From an uncultured Schlesneria sp. (GTDB lineage Bacteria; Planctomycetota; Planctomycetia; Planctomycetales; Planctomycetaceae), in NCBI GenBank assembly GCA_903871875.1, contig CAIQIR010000106.1, positions 62,001 to 126,000 on the forward strand: DNA of 64,000 nt. The letters run 5' to 3'. Numbering within the stretch: the stretch's first letter is position 1; every line of letters begins with the position of its first letter. The position numbers were made by a program, and so were the translations under genes. Below are positions 36,501 to 46,864 of this stretch, one piece after another. The notes below the pieces were generated by a model, which was not told the DNA's origin, did no database searches, and saw only the letters and a program-made list of their open reading frames with translations.

Positions 36501-38501
36501 TCATCCCCATTTCATCCGGCCGATGCGAGACAATCGGGCGCTATGGATAGGGTGAGGTGCCGTTCGAAGGGATGACGGCAACCAGGATGGTCGAGGAACC
36601 CGTTCGTCAGTGGGTTCCTTCAGAATGGGCAGTCGGATCCCTTTTTGGATCGCTTTATAGCGGTCAATTTCCGTGGGATGGATGTACAGTCGCTTGGAAG
36701 AAATCAACTCGCAGAGGAATTCGCACAGTGATTGGCTGAGTCCTGACCAGATCACCACATTCGAATTGGATCTGACCGCGAGTCCGTGCTCGCCAGAGAC
36801 TTCCAGGTAGGGTTCCAGAGCCTCGGCGAGTTGCGGGAACAAGACGTCGCCATGGGTGCGGATGAATTCAACAATCCCCGCTTTGAGTTGTCCGGCCGAA
36901 GCCAATTGTGCCCAGGGAGGGACGGTCGGGGAATCGATGTCATCGAGAGGAATGCGAACGTCATCCGTTCGATTTTCGGCATCCAACATCGCGGTCACGC
37001 GACTATCCGAAGTGGCGCGTCGACATCGATCTTGGGCCCAGTTTCGCAGGGCGAAGATCTTGTCTTCCATCGTCACGGAAAGTGGAACTGTTGTCCGCCA
37101 GGCACGTTCGAGGTCTTGTTGAGATAAGACCTGTTGATTGCCGAAGGCATCGATCAGGGCGGTCACCACGATTTGTTCTAGTTCCGCGCCACTGAATCCT
37201 TCACTGCGATGCGCCAGGTCATCCAGGTCGAACTGTTCCGTCTTCCATCCGCGTTTTTTAAGATGGATTGCCAGAATATTCTTTCGTTCGTCGAAGTTCG
37301 GAAGATCGACAAAAAACAATTCGTCGAATCGACCACGACGAAGCATTTCTGGTGGAAGATGCTCAACGGAATTGGCTGTGGCCACGACGAAGACTGGTTT
37401 CTGGATTTCCGCCATCCAGGTCAGAAATGTCCCGACCAACCGCAACATGGTCGCATCGGCGTTGGACGACCCGTCCCCTTCAACTCCCGCGAACCCCTTT
37501 TCAATTTCGTCCAACCACAAAACCGCGGGCGCAATGGATTCCACCAAATTCAGCACGTTCCGCATATTCTTTTCCGACTCACCACGCTGGGCTCCCAGCA
37601 GTGCGGCAATGTCGAGTCGAATCAACGGAAAGCTCAGTAAACGTGCTGTGGCCCGGGCCGTCAGGCTTTTTCCGCAACCTTGCACTCCTAACAACAACAT
37701 TCCTTTGGGCAGAGGCACACCCTGTTCCCGGGCACGAGGTGAATATGCATCAGCACGCTTCGCCATCCAATCTTTCAGCTGATCGAGTCCCCCGATATCG
37801 TCGACGTTCTCTTCCAGATCGTAGAATTCGAGAAAATCGGAACCGGAAGCGAGTGTTCGTTTCTCGGCGATGAGTGTTGTAAAGACATCGTCGTTCAGTG
37901 CAGTTCGGCCATGCAGGGCTCGTTGCCAGGCTTTTCGGGCTTCATTGGCCGTCAATCCCATAACCGCCTTAATCAATCGGTCTTCGTCGTTATCCGTGAG
38001 TTCCAGCGGACTGGTTTGTCGCTGGTGGATGCCGGTCAGCACCTGATCGAATTCCTCGCGCAGGTCTTCGTAGTCGGGAAGCGGAAGTTCGATCTTGACC
38101 GAGTCTTTAGCCAGTTCCAGCGGGACATTGGCCACAGGTCCAAAAATCAACAAGGTTTTTCGCTGAGCGATCAATTCGGGCAGCAGATCGCGAACCTGAC
38201 GGAGGATCAATGGGTCAGTCAGATAGGGATGGAAGTCTTTAACAAGAAACAAATGATCTTCGGGATAGCCGTCCAGTTGTCCCAGTAGTCTCGTGGCGGA
38301 CGGAGGTTCGATGTCGTCGTCCGAGAATGGCGGCTGCAATCCCCGTGTAATGGTCCAACTGACGAGTCCTCGCTCCATTTCGAGAGCAAGTTCTGCCAAT
38401 TCTCGTTCCCAGCGATCTTCTTCCGCGGTTTTGAGAAACAACAGCGGATATCCCGATTCAATCCGGGCCCGAATGTCATCCAGAACGACTTCTGATTTCA
38501 T
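36501..38501 (-). CDS. AAA+ ATPase of the Ycf46 type
   Basis: 666 residues from ATG 38501 (MKSEVVLDDIRARI); 31 codons of open frame upstream are ignored. An N-terminal region (about 1-225) resembles a degenerate AAA module with YPLLFLKTAEEDRWERELAELA. The AAA domain follows with GLDQLKDW, Walker A GVQGCGKS (272-279), Walker B LWLDEIEKGFAG (E332), second-region-of-homology arginine in 'EMLRRGRFDE', and the C-terminal lid. Ycf46 proteins of cyanobacteria and plastids have unknown substrates and have been linked to the regulation of photosynthesis and carbon uptake. The C-terminal ~120 residues (from 'GIVEFIRTHGDVLF') are extra. It is alone on the minus strand, 331 bases from eutBC. Confidence 0.87.
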   Translation of the reverse strand: MKSEVVLDDIRARIESGYPLLFLKTAEEDRWERELAELALEMERGLVSWTITRGLQPPFSDDDIEPPSATRLLGQLDGYPEDHLFLVKDFHPYLTDPLILRQVRDLLPELIAQRKTLLIFGPVANVPLELAKDSVKIELPLPDYEDLREEFDQVLTGIHQRQTSPLELTDNDEDRLIKAVMGLTANEARKAWQRALHGRTALNDDVFTTLIAEKRTLASGSDFLEFYDLEENVDDIGGLDQLKDWMAKRADAYSPRAREQGVPLPKGMLLLGVQGCGKSLTARATARLLSFPLIRLDIAALLGAQRGESEKNMRNVLNLVESIAPAVLWLDEIEKGFAGVEGDGSSNADATMLRLVGTFLTWMAEIQKPVFVVATANSVEHLPPEMLRRGRFDELFFVDLPNFDERKNILAIHLKKRGWKTEQFDLDDLAHRSEGFSGAELEQIVVTALIDAFGNQQVLSQQDLERAWRTTVPLSVTMEDKIFALRNWAQDRCRRATSDSRVTAMLDAENRTDDVRIPLDDIDSPTVPPWAQLASAGQLKAGIVEFIRTHGDVLFPQLAEALEPYLEVSGEHGLAVRSNSNVVIWSGLSQSLCEFLCELISSKRLYIHPTEIDRYKAIQKGIRLPILKEPTDERVPRPSWLPSSLRTAPHPIHSARLSRIGRMKWG

Positions 38502-38832
38502 CGCAACGATCTTCTTAGTGGCTGTGACATCCTGACGGCATTTGCAAGGTTTTGTTTCTCCCCGCGTCCACATTTCATGGGCAAGTTCAGTCAAGGGGAA
38601 GTCTAACGACTCTTGGGTCTTACCCGCTATTCGAAGTCATGTGTTGGCCGTTTAACGACCTTCACTATCGCTTCGGTCCCGACTTTGTAGGCGTTTCAGG
38701 CAACGCCAAGCCCAATGATCGAAGACTTCGATATTCAGATCACGGAAGAGACTGATTGAATGTACGGTGATTCGCGAGTCAAGCAGTCACCATTCCTGAT
38801 CGCATTGATGGTAACGAAGTCAAATTGCCGTT
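38502..38832. other. Intergenic region, 331 bases
   Basis: Between eutBC and the Ycf46-like gene, both on the minus strand. I see no gene, hairpin or clear promoter. Confidence 0.5.
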
Positions 38833-41115
38833 CTACCGCGCGAGGGCGGCCATGATATCGCGGGCCGCCTTTTGAGGGGCCAGCGCGGTTGCTCCGATAC
38901 CCGAGACGACTTTGGTGATGTTGTGATCGACTTGATCGGGTTGTTTCCAGACAGCGCCGTCGGCCGTTGTCAGGTAAGCCGACAAAGTGTGATGGCCAGA
39001 TCCGGGACGTTCGCCGATCAAGTGAATGATGGTTCGCAAACCAGTCAGTCCTCCGAGCAGTCGTTCGCCGATTCGATACCCGGCTCGCACGCGGCCGCTG
39101 TTGACAACGAATTGCCCGGGAGCCACGCGAAGTCCCGATTTGATCAGCAGCGGATGCAGATACTCTAGCAGCGGCAATAAATTTCCTTCGTCCATCAAGG
39201 CCAAGGCATTCAGCCCCTCCGAGATGACGATCACCGTGTCCCACTGGCCGTTGTCTGCCGTTCGCAGTTGCTCGATCTGGCGTAGTGATTCGTCCGATAG
39301 TTGCTCGCCTGAAGTGGGATGCAAAATATAGTCGCTACGGTCGAACGAACGAGTGGAAAGCGTAATGGCATTGGGAATCCGCCGCACGAACTCGGGATTC
39401 CACTCTTTCCAGATGCATTGTTTGGCGTCTTCGTAGACGGTTTGAATTTCGGCACGAATCTTCGGGGCCAGTTCATAAGGTTGCCGGCCGTATCCTTCCG
39501 CGATAAATACCCCGCGCTGGCGGATTTCGGCGATTGTGCGCTGCGATTCGGCGAGAATCTCTGTGTCGGTTCGGGGGTCGTTCTTTTGACGGCGATACTG
39601 CAAGTAGACCCAGTTTGGATCGCCGAAATGTTCCGTAGGCTTTCCATGGACATCGATTACACCGATCCGCTGGAAGAAGGTCCACATCCGATCGTCGACT
39701 CGATAGCCAAACTTTTCCCGAAGTCGTACGTGATCCTGAAAGCCGGTGGTCAGATACCCCAGCATCGGATCGATCTTGGTGGGCAAAGCCATCAGGTAGG
39801 CCGGATTGGCGGGGGCGATTTGTTCCAGACACCAGTCTAAATCGTCGAGAGAGACATCCATATGCAAGGTCGAACAAACATCCAGACCAATCGTCAGTCC
39901 GTGCAGTTTGCCCATGGCGATGTCTTCCAGACAACAGCGAACCAATTGTTCGCGGGTGCGGAAAACCTCGGGACCGATAAATCCGGCCACGTCATTGATG
40001 TGCAACCAGGCTTGATTGCCGACGATTCCCTTTGAGGCGGCAATTGTTTGCTGCAGACCCCGGGCGAAGCCATATTTACGGGATTCGTGGAAGACCATAT
40101 CGCAGTCATGGCTGTGGCCATTCGTGAAATCAGCACCTTGCCCCGATTCGAGATAAAGCCCGAACCGACCGGTGCGGCCTCGAGCGTACTGCACCATTTT
40201 CTCAAGGTTGATATCGAAGGTTGCATTTGCATCGTCGTTACCAGCGATGCTCTGAAACCAGAACTCGGTCGAACCTGGATGAACTCGTTCGACTTCGGCC
40301 TGGACATCGATATGGGCCAACACACAATGCGGCAGAATGTGATCGATACCAAATGTTTTCAAAACGTCCTGCAGCACAAGCTCGACGGCGGCAACGGAAC
40401 TCGGGTCACTCGACACCGGATTGGTACCGAGCAAGACGTCACCCACTGCATAGGCAAAGGCATTGAATACTTGAAACTGAATATCGGTCGGATTGTCCGT
40501 TGGGGAATTCGGCTGAACTCGAGCTCCCAGATAACCCTTGGCTCCAATATTCGATCCGTGCAGGGGATGAAAGATCGTCTTTCCAATCGCAATCAATTCC
40601 TCATTCGTCATCAAACGGACAAGGCAGGCGATCAGATCGCTAGTCAGGCCGGGCAGGATCGAGTGAATTTCGGCGGAACTGCCCAAAAGCAACTGGCGTT
40701 TCAAATCGCCAAGCGTTCGCTCGTTCCAAGCAGCCCGTCGCTCGTTCAGAGCGAAGCGATCGTTCCATCGGGAGAGATTGTCCTCCCAGGGGGGATGTGC
40801 AACGAGATCGGCGACGTGTGTATTCGCTAACAGTTGGCGCGCCCGCGAGCGTGTCTGATCGTCAACTGCGGCGACACCGATGATCGCGTCACCTTCTTTG
40901 AATTCGTTGGCCGCTCCGAGAATTTGTCGGAACAGGTGGACATCGAAGCGACCCGCCTGCCGCTGGATGAACGAGAACAGATCCTCGTCATTTCGCATAG
41001 GGCCAATTGTGACCCGCGTTGTTGTCTGATCCGCCCAAACTGAAGATGAAGCGAGCCCGCAACCGAGTACAACGGGTGTTGAGATCGTGGCAATAAAATC
41101 GCGTCGATTGAGCAT
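38833..41115 (-). CDS. Ethanolamine ammonia-lyase, fused EutB-EutC with Tat-type signal
   Basis: 760 residues from ATG 41115. The N-terminus reads MLNRRDFIATIS, a twin-arginine motif (RRDF) followed by a hydrophobic stretch and SVWAD, a plausible Tat signal with cleavage site. The large-subunit (EutB) part, about 35-505, keeps the residues that in the E. coli enzyme contact substrate and cofactor: R199 and Q201 in GARVQPN, N232 in GTNPV, F287 in FQSIAG, E323 in YLESGQG and D412 in GLDVC. After a short linker the EutC part (about 560-760) contains FVVNSGRVRAGYRIGE and HLIGERPGSGHH. The enzyme splits ethanolamine to acetaldehyde and ammonia with adenosylcobalamin. There is no eut microcompartment gene in the window. 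Whether it is really exported is open. Confidence 0.92.
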   Translation of the reverse strand: MLNRRDFIATISTPVVLGCGLASSSVWADQTTTRVTIGPMRNDEDLFSFIQRQAGRFDVHLFRQILGAANEFKEGDAIIGVAAVDDQTRSRARQLLANTHVADLVAHPPWEDNLSRWNDRFALNERRAAWNERTLGDLKRQLLLGSSAEIHSILPGLTSDLIACLVRLMTNEELIAIGKTIFHPLHGSNIGAKGYLGARVQPNSPTDNPTDIQFQVFNAFAYAVGDVLLGTNPVSSDPSSVAAVELVLQDVLKTFGIDHILPHCVLAHIDVQAEVERVHPGSTEFWFQSIAGNDDANATFDINLEKMVQYARGRTGRFGLYLESGQGADFTNGHSHDCDMVFHESRKYGFARGLQQTIAASKGIVGNQAWLHINDVAGFIGPEVFRTREQLVRCCLEDIAMGKLHGLTIGLDVCSTLHMDVSLDDLDWCLEQIAPANPAYLMALPTKIDPMLGYLTTGFQDHVRLREKFGYRVDDRMWTFFQRIGVIDVHGKPTEHFGDPNWVYLQYRRQKNDPRTDTEILAESQRTIAEIRQRGVFIAEGYGRQPYELAPKIRAEIQTVYEDAKQCIWKEWNPEFVRRIPNAITLSTRSFDRSDYILHPTSGEQLSDESLRQIEQLRTADNGQWDTVIVISEGLNALALMDEGNLLPLLEYLHPLLIKSGLRVAPGQFVVNSGRVRAGYRIGERLLGGLTGLRTIIHLIGERPGSGHHTLSAYLTTADGAVWKQPDQVDHNITKVVSGIGATALAPQKAARDIMAALAR

Positions 41116-41687: not shown

Positions 41688-42539
41688 GTGTCGGCATCAG
41701 CTTCTCCCATTGACGCTCATCCCTCTGCCTCGACCCCAATCCACGGGTTGGGACGGATGGTGGTTGATAGCATCGTCGTGCTGGGGGATTTATTCACATT
41801 CGGTTGGACTCTTTGCGGATGGTTGCTGATCCGCCTTCCGCGCGCTCGAGTCTTGTGGCCCATTTTGTATGAAGTGGGTGTACGCAGTGTTCCAGTGGTC
41901 TGTGTGACGGGGCTTTTCATCGGGATGGTATTGGCCGTCCAAACTTATGACACCCTGAAGCAAATGCATTTTGAGAGTCAAATTGGTTCGGTGATCAATG
42001 GAACTCTGGTGAAGGAGTTGGGACCCGTGCTCGCAGCGGTGATGCTGGCTGGGCGGGTTGGCAGTGCCATCGCCGCTCAGATCGGTACTATGAAAGTCAG
42101 CGAACAGATCGACGCGTTGAGTGCATTGGGAGCCGACCCCGTCGCCTTTCTTGTCGTGCCTCGATTTCTGGCCTGTTTTCTGATGATTCCGGCGCTGACG
42201 ATGGTGGCCGAGGGGGTCGGTATCTTCGGCGGCTGGTTCGTCTCGACGCAGATTTACGGTGTCAGCAGCCATTTATTCTGGACTTACTCAGACCGATTCG
42301 TGACGGCCTTCGACGTCATCACGGGCGTGTTTAAAAGCATGAGTTTCGGTGCCGCGATCGCCATCATTGCTTGCCATCGTGGATTCCGCTGTGGATCTGG
42401 GGCCGAGGGCGTGGGGCGCGCCGCGACGGAGGCGTTCGTGGCTTCCTTCGTGGCGATCTTGGCGCTCGATTTTGTTTTAGCGCTGTTATCCATTCATCTG
42501 TTGAAACTTCTGTGGGCGCTGGGCATTCCAGTGACATAA
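41688..42539 (+). CDS. mlaE: MlaE-family ABC lipid transport permease
   Basis: 283 residues from GTG 41688 (an ATG at codon 24 is possible). Five or six membrane helices. The family signature around residues 105-160 is clear: [21 protein letters not shown], then [20 protein letters not shown] and [12 protein letters not shown]. MlaE is the permease of the Mla/Mce complexes that move phospholipids between inner and outer membrane. Its stop overlaps the start of the next gene (TAATG), so the three genes to 44609 form an operon: permease, ATPase and MCE protein. The C-terminal part has a small insert [17 protein letters not shown], a common MlaE feature. Confidence 0.93.
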
Positions 42540-43378
42540 TGACGACGACACTCAATCGCAAAACGGAATCCGTCCCACGCAGTTTTCCCGCCGCTGTTCC
42601 TGCGGTCACGGCTGAACTGTCAAACGTCTCGCATTCCTTTGGCCATCAGCCGGTTCTGCGAAACATTTCCCTGCAGGTTTGTCGGGGCGAAACACTGGTT
42701 CTGATCGGCGAAAGTGGCTGCGGTAAAAGCGTCACGACGAAGTTGCTGGCCGGGCTACTCCAACCGACTTCGGGTGACGTCTTGTGGGAGGGGCGACCAG
42801 TCCGTAGTCGAAATTCGACCGAGATGCGTCGCGATCGGTTGCGACTGGGTTATTTGTTCCAGGGAGCGGCCTTGTTCGACAGTATGAATGTCTTTGAAAA
42901 TATTGCCTTTGGACTGCGAGAAAATACGAAAATGCCCGAGTCGCAAATTCGGGAAATTGTGTTCGATCGTCTTCGCGAAGTGGGGTTGGTGGACAGTGTG
43001 GGTGATAAGCGGCCTTCCGACCTGTCCGGGGGGATGAAAAAGCGAGTGGGGCTGGCCCGAGCGTTGGCGATGTCGCCCGACATCATGTTTTATGACGAAC
43101 CCACGACAGGACTCGATCCCATCATGAGCGGTGTCATCAACGAACTGATTCTGCAAACACAGATGCGCCGACAGGTGACCAGCATTGTGGTCACTCACGA
43201 TATGACGACGGTTCGTCGAGTGGCGGACCGCGTAGTCATGCTCTATCCACTCGGAAAGTTAGCGTCCGAAGAGCCGCAGATTGTCTTTGAAGGTTCGTGC
43301 CACGAGGCGTTCGCTACTGAGGACGTTCGTGTCGCTCGATTTGTTCGAGGAAGCACAAGTACACAGTTGACGGAATGA
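42539..43378 (+). CDS. mlaF: MlaF-family ABC transporter ATPase
   Basis: 279 residues from the ATG that shares its first base with the mlaE stop codon (TAATG). The frame runs another 56 codons upstream in the wrong context. Walker A is GESGCGKS (57-64), Q-loop FQGAAL, signature LSGGMKKR (162-169), Walker B IMFYDEP (183-189) and switch VTHDM. The MKKR after the signature is typical of Mla/Mce ATPases. It energises the MlaE permease in the inner membrane. The first 20 residues are an extension without a motif. Confidence 0.94.
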
Positions 43379-43424
43379 GACGGGAACGGTGAAGACTCGA
43401 TCGAGTCTGGCGGGAAGGACTGTC

Positions 43425-44609
43425 ATGGCCACGGAACGGCAATTGCAATTTCGAGTCGGTGTATTAGTGATTGTCGCCGCATCAGTCTGCGCTGGATTGG
43501 TGGTCCGATTTGGCGATACGCAGCACCTGTGGAAGAAGGGGTACCCGCTGACTGTCCATCTCGAAAATGGAGCGGGGCTTTACCCCAATGCCCCCGTAAC
43601 ATTAAGTGGTTTGGCCATTGGGGCAGTGCGTCAAATTGAATTGAATCAGACCCGGGGCGGGGTCAATATCCAGATCGAAATTCAAGAAGGAATTCGACTT
43701 CCGATCGACAGTCGTGTCGTCGTGACGCGATCACTGATGGGAGAATCGGCGGTTGAATTTGTACGGGGCGTTGAATCGGACATGTTGAAGCCCGGTGGTC
43801 GCGTCGCGGGTGTAGCTGCGGCCGATCCACTCGTGATGATCCAGCGACTGGAAGCACGCACTCATGAAACGCTGAGTGCCTTTGCCGAAACGGGCCAGGA
43901 ATGGCGGCAAGTCGCCAAAAACATTAATCAGTTGATGGATACGGAACGCGGAAATCTGGATCAAGTTGTCGAACAAGCGGCCGAGGCTCTACACGAATTT
44001 ACCATCGCGATGAAAAACGCGAATCAGATGATTGAAGCCGCCAACGACATTGTCGGCGACCCCGCCTCACAACGGGCGATGAAAGAGGCGTTGACCGCCT
44101 TGCCGAAACTAGTCGGCGCTACGAAAGCAACTCTCGATGAGACTCGCCAGGCTGTCGGGGCAACGCGACAGGTGATGGATTCCATGAATCGCAATCTGGT
44201 CAACCTGTCGCAAGTCACCGAACCGGTGGGAAAACGGGGCGAACAGATGGTGGCGAAGCTCGACAGCAGTCTGACGAACATCGACCAGCTACTGACGGAA
44301 TTGAACCGTTTTGCCCGAGTCATCAATCAGAAAGATGGTTCATTACAGAAGTTCGTCCGCGATCCGTCGCTCTACAACAATCTCGATAGCTCATCGCAAT
44401 CGATGGTCGTGCTGATGAAGAATCTCGAACCGATTTTGAGAGATCTGCGTGAGTTCAGCGACAAAGTGGCTCGAAACCCCGAGCTGCTGGGTGTCGGTGG
44501 CGCGGTCCGCCCCAGCAAGGGGTTGAAGGACGAGGAAATACTCAATCCGGTGTCCAAACGCCCCTCGCCGCCACAGGCATCGACGATTCGCGGCAAGAGC
44601 CCGAATTGA
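43425..44609 (+). CDS. mlaD: MCE/MlaD-family substrate-binding protein
   Basis: 394 residues from ATG 43425, preceded by GGAAGGACTG. The frame opens at GTG 43389. The protein has one membrane helix (VGVLVIVAASVCAGLVVRF) and then an MCE domain (about 35-135) with YPLTVHLENGAGLYPNAPVTLSG and the typical RSLMGESAVEF. The C-terminal ~230 residues are alpha-helical and probably coiled-coil, rich in Asn, Gln and Glu (e.g. NINQLMDTERGNLDQVVEQ), comparable to the long needle or tunnel-forming tails of larger MCE proteins. MCE proteins bind lipid in the periplasm and hand it to the MlaE/F channel. No MlaB or MlaC homologue follows, so the system may be a minimal one. Confidence 0.91.
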   Translation: MATERQLQFRVGVLVIVAASVCAGLVVRFGDTQHLWKKGYPLTVHLENGAGLYPNAPVTLSGLAIGAVRQIELNQTRGGVNIQIEIQEGIRLPIDSRVVVTRSLMGESAVEFVRGVESDMLKPGGRVAGVAAADPLVMIQRLEARTHETLSAFAETGQEWRQVAKNINQLMDTERGNLDQVVEQAAEALHEFTIAMKNANQMIEAANDIVGDPASQRAMKEALTALPKLVGATKATLDETRQAVGATRQVMDSMNRNLVNLSQVTEPVGKRGEQMVAKLDSSLTNIDQLLTELNRFARVINQKDGSLQKFVRDPSLYNNLDSSSQSMVVLMKNLEPILRDLREFSDKVARNPELLGVGGAVRPSKGLKDEEILNPVSKRPSPPQASTIRGKSPN

Positions 44610-44836: not shown

Positions 44837-45142
44837 TTACGACGCAACATAGCGGCTACCACGAACCACTTGGACATCCATCAACCAGGCGATGCAGGCA
44901 TGATTCTCGAAGTAGTTATGGGCAACGAAGGTCAAAATTGCGTTGGCAACGGGTTCCGCACAAACGACTTCAATTTCGACGTTGTTGGCAAAGGGATCAC
45001 TTCGAGCACCACGTGAACCGAAACCTTGCACTTCATGACACGTATAGCCGGTCGCTCCCAGCTCACAGATCTTCTTTACGAGCGATTGTCGGAGGTTGTC
45101 TTCGATGACAATCGTCACCTTTTTCAAAGTATGCAGCTGCAT
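44837..45142 (-). CDS. SbtB-like PII-family protein
   Basis: 101 residues. The fold is that of PII signal proteins: beta-strand KKVTIVIEDNL, helix QSLVKKICELGATGYT, then the T-loop region CHEVQGFGSRGARSDP and strand NNVEIEVVCA. The end is IAWLMDVQVVRGSRYVAS. In cyanobacteria SbtB sits next to SbtA, binds adenine nucleotides including cAMP, and regulates the bicarbonate transporter. Here the gene directly follows sbtA on the same strand (131 bases away), which supports the same role. The C-terminal Cys-containing R-loop (CGPxGC-like) of cyanobacterial SbtB is not present. It is therefore a PII-like regulator with uncertain ligand. Confidence 0.83.
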   Translation of the reverse strand: MQLHTLKKVTIVIEDNLRQSLVKKICELGATGYTCHEVQGFGSRGARSDPFANNVEIEVVCAEPVANAILTFVAHNYFENHACIAWLMDVQVVRGSRYVAS

Positions 45143-45273
45143 GGGAAGGCCTCTCTGGTATTTGTAACAAATTGCGACCGCCTACCGATTTCAAACGAAT
45201 CTCTCAGCCAAACAGCCGTATTTCAGTATTGTAAACTTAGCAATGACCCAGAAGGTTCAAAAAAATCGGAGGG

Positions 45274-46341
45274 CTATTGTGCGCCCAACGATTTCGCCAT
45301 CCAGAAGTAAATTGGAATCCCGATTGCGATATTGAACGGGAAGGTGATCCCGAGCGCAGCGGTCATCGACAGCGTCGGATTCGCTTGTGGCAGCGTCAAC
45401 CTGACAGCAGGCGGAGCCGCAATGTAAGAGGCGCTGGAAACGATCGCGGCAAGAATGGTGCAGCCACCCAGATTCATTCCGGCCAGATGCCCCAAAAACG
45501 CTCCGAGGAATCCGTGTACTAGCGGTACCAGGATGCCGAAGGCGACCAGGAAGGGACCGACTTTTAACAAATCTTTCAATCGTTCACCGGTCACCAGACC
45601 CATTTCCAATAGGAAGATACACAGCGCGCCGCGGAAGATTTGGTTCTTGCTATAGAAGAATTCCTTGAAGACTTCGAACTTCTTTTCGGGCATGACGAGC
45701 GTGGAAATGAATCCGATGACAAGCAGACCCACCATCAGCATCAGTGATTGTCCCGTGATCACTTCGTGCAGCGCTTCCCAAATACTACCGCCCGATTCTT
45801 CGTCGGCAGCCATCGTCCCGCCGCTCTCACTTGCTTTGGCCTGCTTTTCCATTCCCAAACCGATGGCACCAATCACCAAGGCGATCGCAATCCCCGGACA
45901 TTCCAAAATCGTCACCAGGGTTGGTACGTAAGCATCGGGCTTATAGCCCATGTTGTTGACGTAGTCATTCGCAACGATGTAGGTCACAGCAGATGTCGAA
46001 CCATAGTGTGCTGCAATCCCGGCCGAGTCGGCGATCGAAAGTCGTCCGACGTAACGCAAAACCGAATAGGCAACGATAGGCGTGATACATCCCAGAACCA
46101 ATGTCGCGAGTGCCGGTTTCCAAATCGTCGAAACACCATGATCATGATATTCGTGGGCCAGTTCATGACCCCCGATGATGCCGATGGACATCAGCAGGTA
46201 AATGGAAATGGCATAGTAGAACTCCTTCGGGATTTTGATCCCGCCGTGAATTAACTTGCAGAAGATTCCCAATGCGAAGCACATCGGGATCGGTGTCAAC
46301 AAGTTGTCCCTGAGCGATGTCAGGATAAGGCTAGTATCCAT
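45274..46341 (-). CDS. sbtA: SbtA-family sodium-dependent bicarbonate transporter
   Basis: 355 residues from ATG 46341, preceded by GAGGAACT on its strand; the frame runs 27 codons upstream in an unlikely context. About ten membrane helices in two inverted halves (TPIPMCFALGIFCKLI ... and ILVPLVHGFLGAFLGH). Conserved SbtA features include FYYAISIYLLMSIGIIGG in the first half and AHYGSTSAVTYIVA, which lies at the bicarbonate and sodium site. A hydrophilic loop (about 170-190, KQAKASESGGTMAADEESGG) separates the halves. SbtA imports HCO3- with Na+ in cyanobacteria. Planctomycetes are heterotrophs, so bicarbonate may feed anaplerotic carboxylation here. Paired with the SbtB-like gene downstream. 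Confidence 0.9.
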   Translation of the reverse strand: MDTSLILTSLRDNLLTPIPMCFALGIFCKLIHGGIKIPKEFYYAISIYLLMSIGIIGGHELAHEYHDHGVSTIWKPALATLVLGCITPIVAYSVLRYVGRLSIADSAGIAAHYGSTSAVTYIVANDYVNNMGYKPDAYVPTLVTILECPGIAIALVIGAIGLGMEKQAKASESGGTMAADEESGGSIWEALHEVITGQSLMLMVGLLVIGFISTLVMPEKKFEVFKEFFYSKNQIFRGALCIFLLEMGLVTGERLKDLLKVGPFLVAFGILVPLVHGFLGAFLGHLAGMNLGGCTILAAIVSSASYIAAPPAVRLTLPQANPTLSMTAALGITFPFNIAIGIPIYFWMAKSLGAQ

Positions 46342-46864
46342 CGAAAAAGTTCCTCGTCGGACGAAAGGATTATTGGAGCGCTTTCCCGGGTCCGCCCAAA
46401 TGTGGATTTGCGCGAGTCGCATCCAGTCCCAAGCCCACCAACCGAATTCATCTGCCGAAGTGCTTCAGCGACGAGTGGATGCGATACACGCAATTCATTA
46501 TTCAAGCGCGGGGGACGATAACCTTTCTTTGAATGTCAAACTATAGAGCCCTTCGAAACCTAAAGGGCTTGTAAGCTAAGACCGTACGACGGATCTGTTT
46601 GGGCTCAGATTCTTCGGAAAAGAGAAGTCCGTTTGTGGATCTTGCTGATCACGAAAGAGCGTGGGGACTGACGACGTCTGTGACGGCCGATGACGTCAGA
46701 GAAGTGGACAATGAATACGTCAGTACGATGTCAGCGGAACCTGGCCGCAATCATTTCCGACCGACGTACGACGAGATTACTTACTCGTAAGAACGGGCTG
46801 TTTGTGTCTGACTTGAACGGTTGTTCCGCAGCGAGTGAGCATGCGAAGTGACGAAATCGTCACT
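46342..46864. other. Intergenic region, 523 bases
   Basis: Upstream of sbtA and downstream of sufT. A 7-bp stem AGCCCTT / AAGGGCT is at 46547-46569. A 63-codon plus-strand frame (46599-46790) begins at TTG with no ribosome site and is not counted as a gene. Confidence 0.5.

Follow-up and report, generated by a model that had tools for sequence, protein, structure and literature searches.

A single-chain EutB-EutC protein with a twin-arginine signal in a planctomycete, and its family of putatively exported ethanolamine ammonia-lyases

To our knowledge, ethanolamine ammonia-lyase is known only from inside cells, and we know of no precedent for an adenosylcobalamin (AdoCbl)-dependent radical enzyme outside the cytoplasm. 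Enzymes that depend on AdoCbl are regarded as residents of the cytosol or of organelles, since the synthesis, delivery and repair of the coenzyme all take place within the cell, and the shell-free ethanolamine lyase of Pseudomonas is cytosolic. Reductive dehalogenases (RdhA) use cobalamin and [4Fe-4S] clusters, not AdoCbl radical chemistry. Reductive dehalogenases are cobamide enzymes with a Tat signal (PMC11921367). The N-terminal region of EutC holds a microcompartment-targeting (encapsulation) peptide, and the eut operon of Pseudomonas is short and shell-free, with four genes (PMC5821096). No description of an exported or Tat-dependent ethanolamine ammonia-lyase was found in the literature searched, mostly outside subscription journals; the only co-occurrence of the enzyme and Tat there was in a Desulfitobacterium genome paper, and a paper on Tat in alpha-proteobacteria did not mention ethanolamine. 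The catalytic family is known, and its one-chain exported form and phylum-wide spread appear to be undescribed.

The window, that is, the whole stretch of 64,000 nucleotides analysed, contained an intact EutBC reading frame spanning exactly 38833-41115 (-), which stood alone between an AAA ATPase gene and an Mla-type operon (Table 1). Its product was the single EutB of the source genome (7.6 Mb, 99.99% complete) in a whole-genome search, and EutA and EutH were both absent from that genome by the same kind of search. The genome encoded a cobalamin adenosyltransferase, methylmalonyl-CoA mutase and TatC (2.0e-61), so that a component of the Tat translocase was present. The initial annotation had reported no eut shell, eutA or B12-related genes near the gene, and a scan of ten neighbouring proteins likewise revealed none; no cobalamin riboswitch occurred in the window, the single example in the genome being on another contig. 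At 44837-46422 (-) of the window, a gene for a P-II-like protein lay beside one for a Na+-dependent bicarbonate transporter (Sbt_1); the two resemble an SbtA/SbtB pair, and the planctomycete is presumably heterotrophic.

Table 1. Features of the fused EutBC gene, its product and its flanks, in window coordinates.
Feature	Coordinates	Strand	Basis or remark
Fused EutBC gene, 760 aa	38833..41115	(-)	ATG at 41115, stop TAG 38833-38835; translation
Twin-arginine signal peptide, residues 1-28, MLNRRDFIATISTPVVLGCGLASSSVWA	41032..41115	(-)	Sequence; conserved in the genus and across phyla
Twin-arginine motif NRRDFI, residues 3-8	41092..41109	(-)	Sequence
VLGC, lipobox-like, residues 16-19	41059..41070	(-)	Genus comparison (L003, L032-L035)
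EutB domain, residues 62-495, TIM-barrel catalytic part	39631..40932	(-)	Pfam, site mapping, structure match
Family-specific insertion, residues 355-371	40003..40053	(-)	phmmer alignments to E. coli and Listeria EutB
EutB-EutC linker, residues 496-554	39454..39630	(-)	E. coli EutC alignment
EutC domain, residues 555-758, cobalamin-binding part	38842..39453	(-)	Pfam, relatives, structure match
AAA ATPase gene	36501-38594		One flank of the EutBC gene
Mla-type transport operon	41688-44609	Opposite to the EutBC gene	Other flank

Pfam located EutB (PF06751; E 1.7e-125, 419.7 bits against a cut-off of 25) and EutC (PF05985; E 4.1e-30, 105.3 bits against a cut-off of 25.8) in the same chain, which bore out the proposed fusion. 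The score for the NCBIfam EutB subfamily NF011649 was narrowly below its cut-off (551.3 against 554) and that for the NCBIfam EutC equivalog was below it too (78.2 against 230), so the window protein is a divergent relative; the EutC score is as expected of a divergent fused form. In its AlphaFold (AF2) model (pLDDT 88, pTM 0.88), the predicted fold resembled E. coli EutB (3abo_A; Z 44.8, 2.2 A, 439 residues, about 30% identity in the structural alignment) and E. coli EutC (5ysr_D; Z 22.6, 225 residues), with diol and glycerol dehydratases as the next structural matches (Z about 22-23). E. coli EutC was alignable only from its residue 57, its first 56 or so residues having no counterpart, and the microcompartment-targeting region is therefore missing. 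With neither an encapsulation region nor eut genes among the scanned neighbours, the marks of a Eut microcompartment enzyme were lacking.

Eleven residues of E. coli EutB that we take to contact the substrate or the coenzyme (R160, Q162, N193, S247, F258, E287, V326, F329, D362, M392 and L402) were all identical at the equivalent positions of the window protein (R199, Q201, N232, S289, F300, E323, V376, F379, D412, M442 and L452). These positions matched in 107 of 107 correctly framed relatives save for one F258Y; three more rows of the active-site table looked like sequences in the wrong frame and were left out. EutC residues G168, L169, R206, V207, GERPG 227-231 and Y241 were kept in 168 of 168 relatives, the core of the window protein including R675, V676, GERPG 701-705 and Y714, and the adjoining L232 was conservatively changed. 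The earlier claim that every substrate- and cobalamin-facing residue checked was conserved thus held for the listed EutB sites but not for EutB E257, which was T in the window protein, nor for EutC R136, R141, R256 and N261, which were replaced by H, E, T and G. As 13 canonical EutC proteins showed no or almost no variation at these four EutC positions, the cobamide type or function could differ. The family-specific insertion preceded the active-site strand NDVAGFIGPE.

Such differences would suit an exported cobamide-dependent lyase of the EutBC fold that acts on another substrate (a small vicinal amino alcohol) or with another cobamide. The low identity to E. coli EutB, the insertion next to the active-site strand, the E257T and EutC changes, and scores just under the NCBI EutB subfamily cut-off and far under that of the EutC equivalog all point in that direction. 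However, every listed substrate-contacting EutB residue was identical, and E257 was mostly missing in planctomycete EutB controls too (S in 14 of 16), which leaves a different substrate or cobamide unlikely. Catalytic competence would be the best explanation of the sequence pattern.

The N-terminus (MLNRRDFIATISTPVVLGCGLASSSVWA, followed by DQ) combined a twin-arginine motif with a hydrophobic stretch free of charges and a cleavage site of the A-x-A type, in agreement with the Tat-like signal originally described, and cleavage was predicted after A28, before D29. Among genus-level relatives the A-x-A site was VWA, AWA or ARA, and the Cys of VLGC was replaced by R or G. Cleavage by SPI between VWA and D is therefore more likely, and a Tat lipoprotein was disfavoured for the window protein. 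Residues 1-31 had an AF2 pLDDT below 50 and the E. coli EutB structure was alignable only from window residue 36, which makes the signal a pure addition to the known enzyme. Comparison with homologues had been proposed as a check on the RR signal, and the ATG at 41115 directly before F/LNRR was kept in all five relatives at genus level that were compared, whereas the preceding 60 bases differed by 43-77% in all genus pairs but one. A start codon downstream of the signal, at about 41040, had been named as a possible refutation and was rejected, as a Met in the needed stretch occurred in only 24 of 174 relatives.

The window protein belonged to a clade of fused EutBC proteins that share 48-78% identity with it, with about 170 relatives in at least seven bacterial phyla and members in Planctomycetota, Bacteroidota, Myxococcota, Desulfobacterota, Acidobacteriota, Riflebacteria and Alphaproteobacteria (including Sinorhizobium meliloti). 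The family occupied one strongly supported branch, separate from E. coli EutBC and from other fused forms, in a tree whose outgroup branches were long. In the class survey, 39 of 199 genomes had the full-length fused type (56-78% identity) and 64 had other EutB types (about 30-37% identity). Split EutB was found in none of the 39 holders, against 12.5 expected if independent (Fisher p ~5e-8, uncorrected for relatedness); one of them, G165, had in addition another fused EutBC of a different kind (L115). Scanning species genomes yielded 80 loci, from Planctomycetota, Bacteroidota, Myxococcota, Acidobacteriota, Riflebacteria, Desulfobacterota and a Haliea MAG. Of 345 Desulfobacterota-group genomes, 16 had the fused type, as did 56 of the 195 genomes from the Myxococcota group. 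By tblastn it also turned up on 25 plasmids from the genera Sinorhizobium, Pararhizobium and Ensifer, where any existing annotation called it 'EutB'. A fused, signal-less protein 38% identical (L160, genome G290) occurred in a Desulfobacterota-group genome that also had the Sec-signal type, and may be a branch intermediate between canonical EutBC and the exported family.

A strict Tat rule (R[RK]x[FLIMVWYN] plus at least 11 uncharged residues) was satisfied by 128 of 174 family members, a few of these loci being the same gene fetched twice, as compared with 41 of 431 neighbouring proteins (9.5%). The twin-arginine motif in the family is more than chance. The two R/K codons of the 128 members formed 39 different codon pairs, so it is the residues rather than the bases that are kept. 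Signals were called by rule (regex) and by eye, and totals were made by regex and by hand, since a first automatic classifier was too strict for about 20 members whose signal was clear by eye. RR/RK-x-F with a hydrophobic stretch was found in most of the approximately 170 relatives, and an export signal was absent from all 17 EutB controls outside the clade, 16 of which came from the class survey.

The kind of signal varied among phyla. Bacteroidota members had SRKxF or RRxF with a lipobox Cys, and many Myxococcota members a Tat lipoprotein signal. Desulfobacterota members had an ordinary Sec signal in 12 of 16 cases (e.g. MKRILFVIGVVFLGILFASTYCSA) and Tat in 4 of 16; the Riflebacteria member L074 had a Sec signal, and the S. 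meliloti protein began with MSKRLFSRQRDGLTRRDLLLMAGATATLASYSHAA, a Tat signal. Well-supported branches of the tree forced at least three changes of the Sec label. In all 13 two-copy myxobacterial genomes, one copy was a Tat lipoprotein and the other was signal-less, and the signal-less paralogues included in the tree formed one well-supported clade within the exported family. Export therefore looks ancestral and its loss derived, subject to rooting. Homologues without RR had been named as evidence against export; those found carried Sec or lipoprotein signals instead, which speaks for export, apart from that one signal-less clade and two isolated myxobacterial cases (L095 and L205).

The initial annotation had also considered that the signal might be vestigial or serve as an anchor; as a mere anchor on the cytoplasmic face it would leave the enzyme cytosolic. 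One myxobacterial clade did lose the signal and is presumably cytosolic, and enzymes of this class normally draw on AdoCbl supplied in the cytosol, but the signal was kept across phyla despite varied codons, Sec or lipoprotein signals took its place elsewhere, and a signal-less paralogue stood beside a signal-bearing copy in the same genomes. A vestigial signal would decay, not be swapped for another export signal. Even an uncleaved signal would put the enzyme outside, because charges precede the hydrophobic stretch (positive-inside rule). A vestigial or anchoring role is accordingly improbable. The export that had been called conceivable is supported by the conservation of the signal across phyla, the Tat-to-Sec swaps, the lipoprotein variants and the pairs of exported and non-exported paralogues. 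Since the export tag is kept, or replaced by one of another kind, across phyla, EutBC probably works outside the cytoplasm.

EutA was not found in 21 of the 22 fused-type holders examined, the one true EutA being that of a Nannocystis MAG; other matches were short and partial, covering 46-131 profile positions within reading frames of 420-704 aa, and were rejected as apparently FtsA/actin-like. Given that absence, an inactivated enzyme may simply be replaced. No conserved neighbour that would reveal a pathway was found across holders; an SDR gene adjoined EutBC in some planctomycetes, and neighbour clusters spanning many loci were discarded as antisense or other frames of the EutBC gene itself. 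A non-catalytic exported cobamide-binding protein that keeps the EutBC fold, such as a B12 scavenger, would go together with the lack of EutA and of conserved catabolic neighbours. All listed catalytic residues were nevertheless kept across this many-phyla family, and a scavenger would not need them, which makes a purely binding role very improbable.

Individual neighbourhoods showed local associations. In S. meliloti (L212 2275-14310, L214 290-12313), EutBC was downstream of adhP and of genes for phosphoketolase, a histidine phosphatase, a very large glycosyl transferase and a glucoamylase-family protein; in Pararhizobium (L213), an acetate-kinase-like gene was about 6 kb from EutBC. Rhizobial EutBC may be linked to acetaldehyde/acetate metabolism. 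In three MAGs labelled Bacteroidetes (L067, L069 and L071), a gene for a substrate-binding-protein-like lipoprotein lay 17 bases upstream of EutBC; the two genes are possibly co-transcribed, and the lipoprotein possibly informative on the substrate.

The preferred reading, with a probability of roughly 0.7 and drawn from sequence comparison, is that the window protein would be an exported, single-chain, AdoCbl-dependent ethanolamine ammonia-lyase acting on the periplasmic side. The single chain would fold and bind AdoCbl in the cytoplasm, cross the membrane folded by Tat, be cut after A28 and work on the periplasmic side. Ethanolamine released from phosphatidylethanolamine outside the cytoplasm would be converted there to ammonia and acetaldehyde, and as these products would diffuse into the cell, an ethanolamine permease would be unneeded. 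The EutB-EutC fusion would let one signal carry both halves and would take the place of the EutC N-terminus that targets microcompartments.

Elsewhere, in other phyla, this enzyme would leave the cytoplasm through Sec, or as a lipoprotein of the Tat or RK type. The initial annotation had held that an exported enzyme needs AdoCbl loaded beforehand; this does not extend to the whole family, because Sec-exported members cross the membrane unfolded. In these members the cofactor would be loaded once the chain has crossed the membrane, so that the periplasm would have to contain usable AdoCbl. Whether AdoCbl radical chemistry proceeds outside the cytoplasm in many Gram-negative phyla, with periplasmic insertion of an imported cobamide in Sec members and no reactivase, is judged an even call. 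If true, a radical coenzyme would be used in the periplasm, and acquired there by the Sec-exported members; there would be a second, shell-free way of keeping the production of toxic acetaldehyde out of the cytoplasm; and the use of ethanolamine by bacteria without eut operons would be explained. The S. meliloti copy, which strains Rm41 and BL225C have, makes exported EutBC testable in a tractable organism.

Among known systems, RdhA has a fold unrelated to that of the window EutBC. The Planctomycetota proteins L115, L116 and L129 also have EutB and EutC in one chain, but they have no export signal and lie on separate branches of the tree; D362 was replaced by A in L115 and L116, whose function is probably altered. 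The group of L115 (1-4500) and L116 (1-4701) was 29% identical to the window protein and 37% identical to E. coli EutB. The Pseudomonas operon likewise has an ethanolamine lyase without a microcompartment and, as described, is also without EutA (PMC5821096), but it has split EutB and EutC together with the transporter Eat and an aldehyde dehydrogenase, whereas the window gene encodes a single fused chain. EutB and EutC of E. coli (3abo) and Listeria (2qez) share with the window protein both domains, the fold as modelled, the substrate-site residues and the cobalamin-binding core of EutC. The window protein differs from them in the lack of the encapsulation region, the eut operon, EutA and EutH, in systematic EutC differences, and in being one chain instead of two, with an export signal at its N-terminus.
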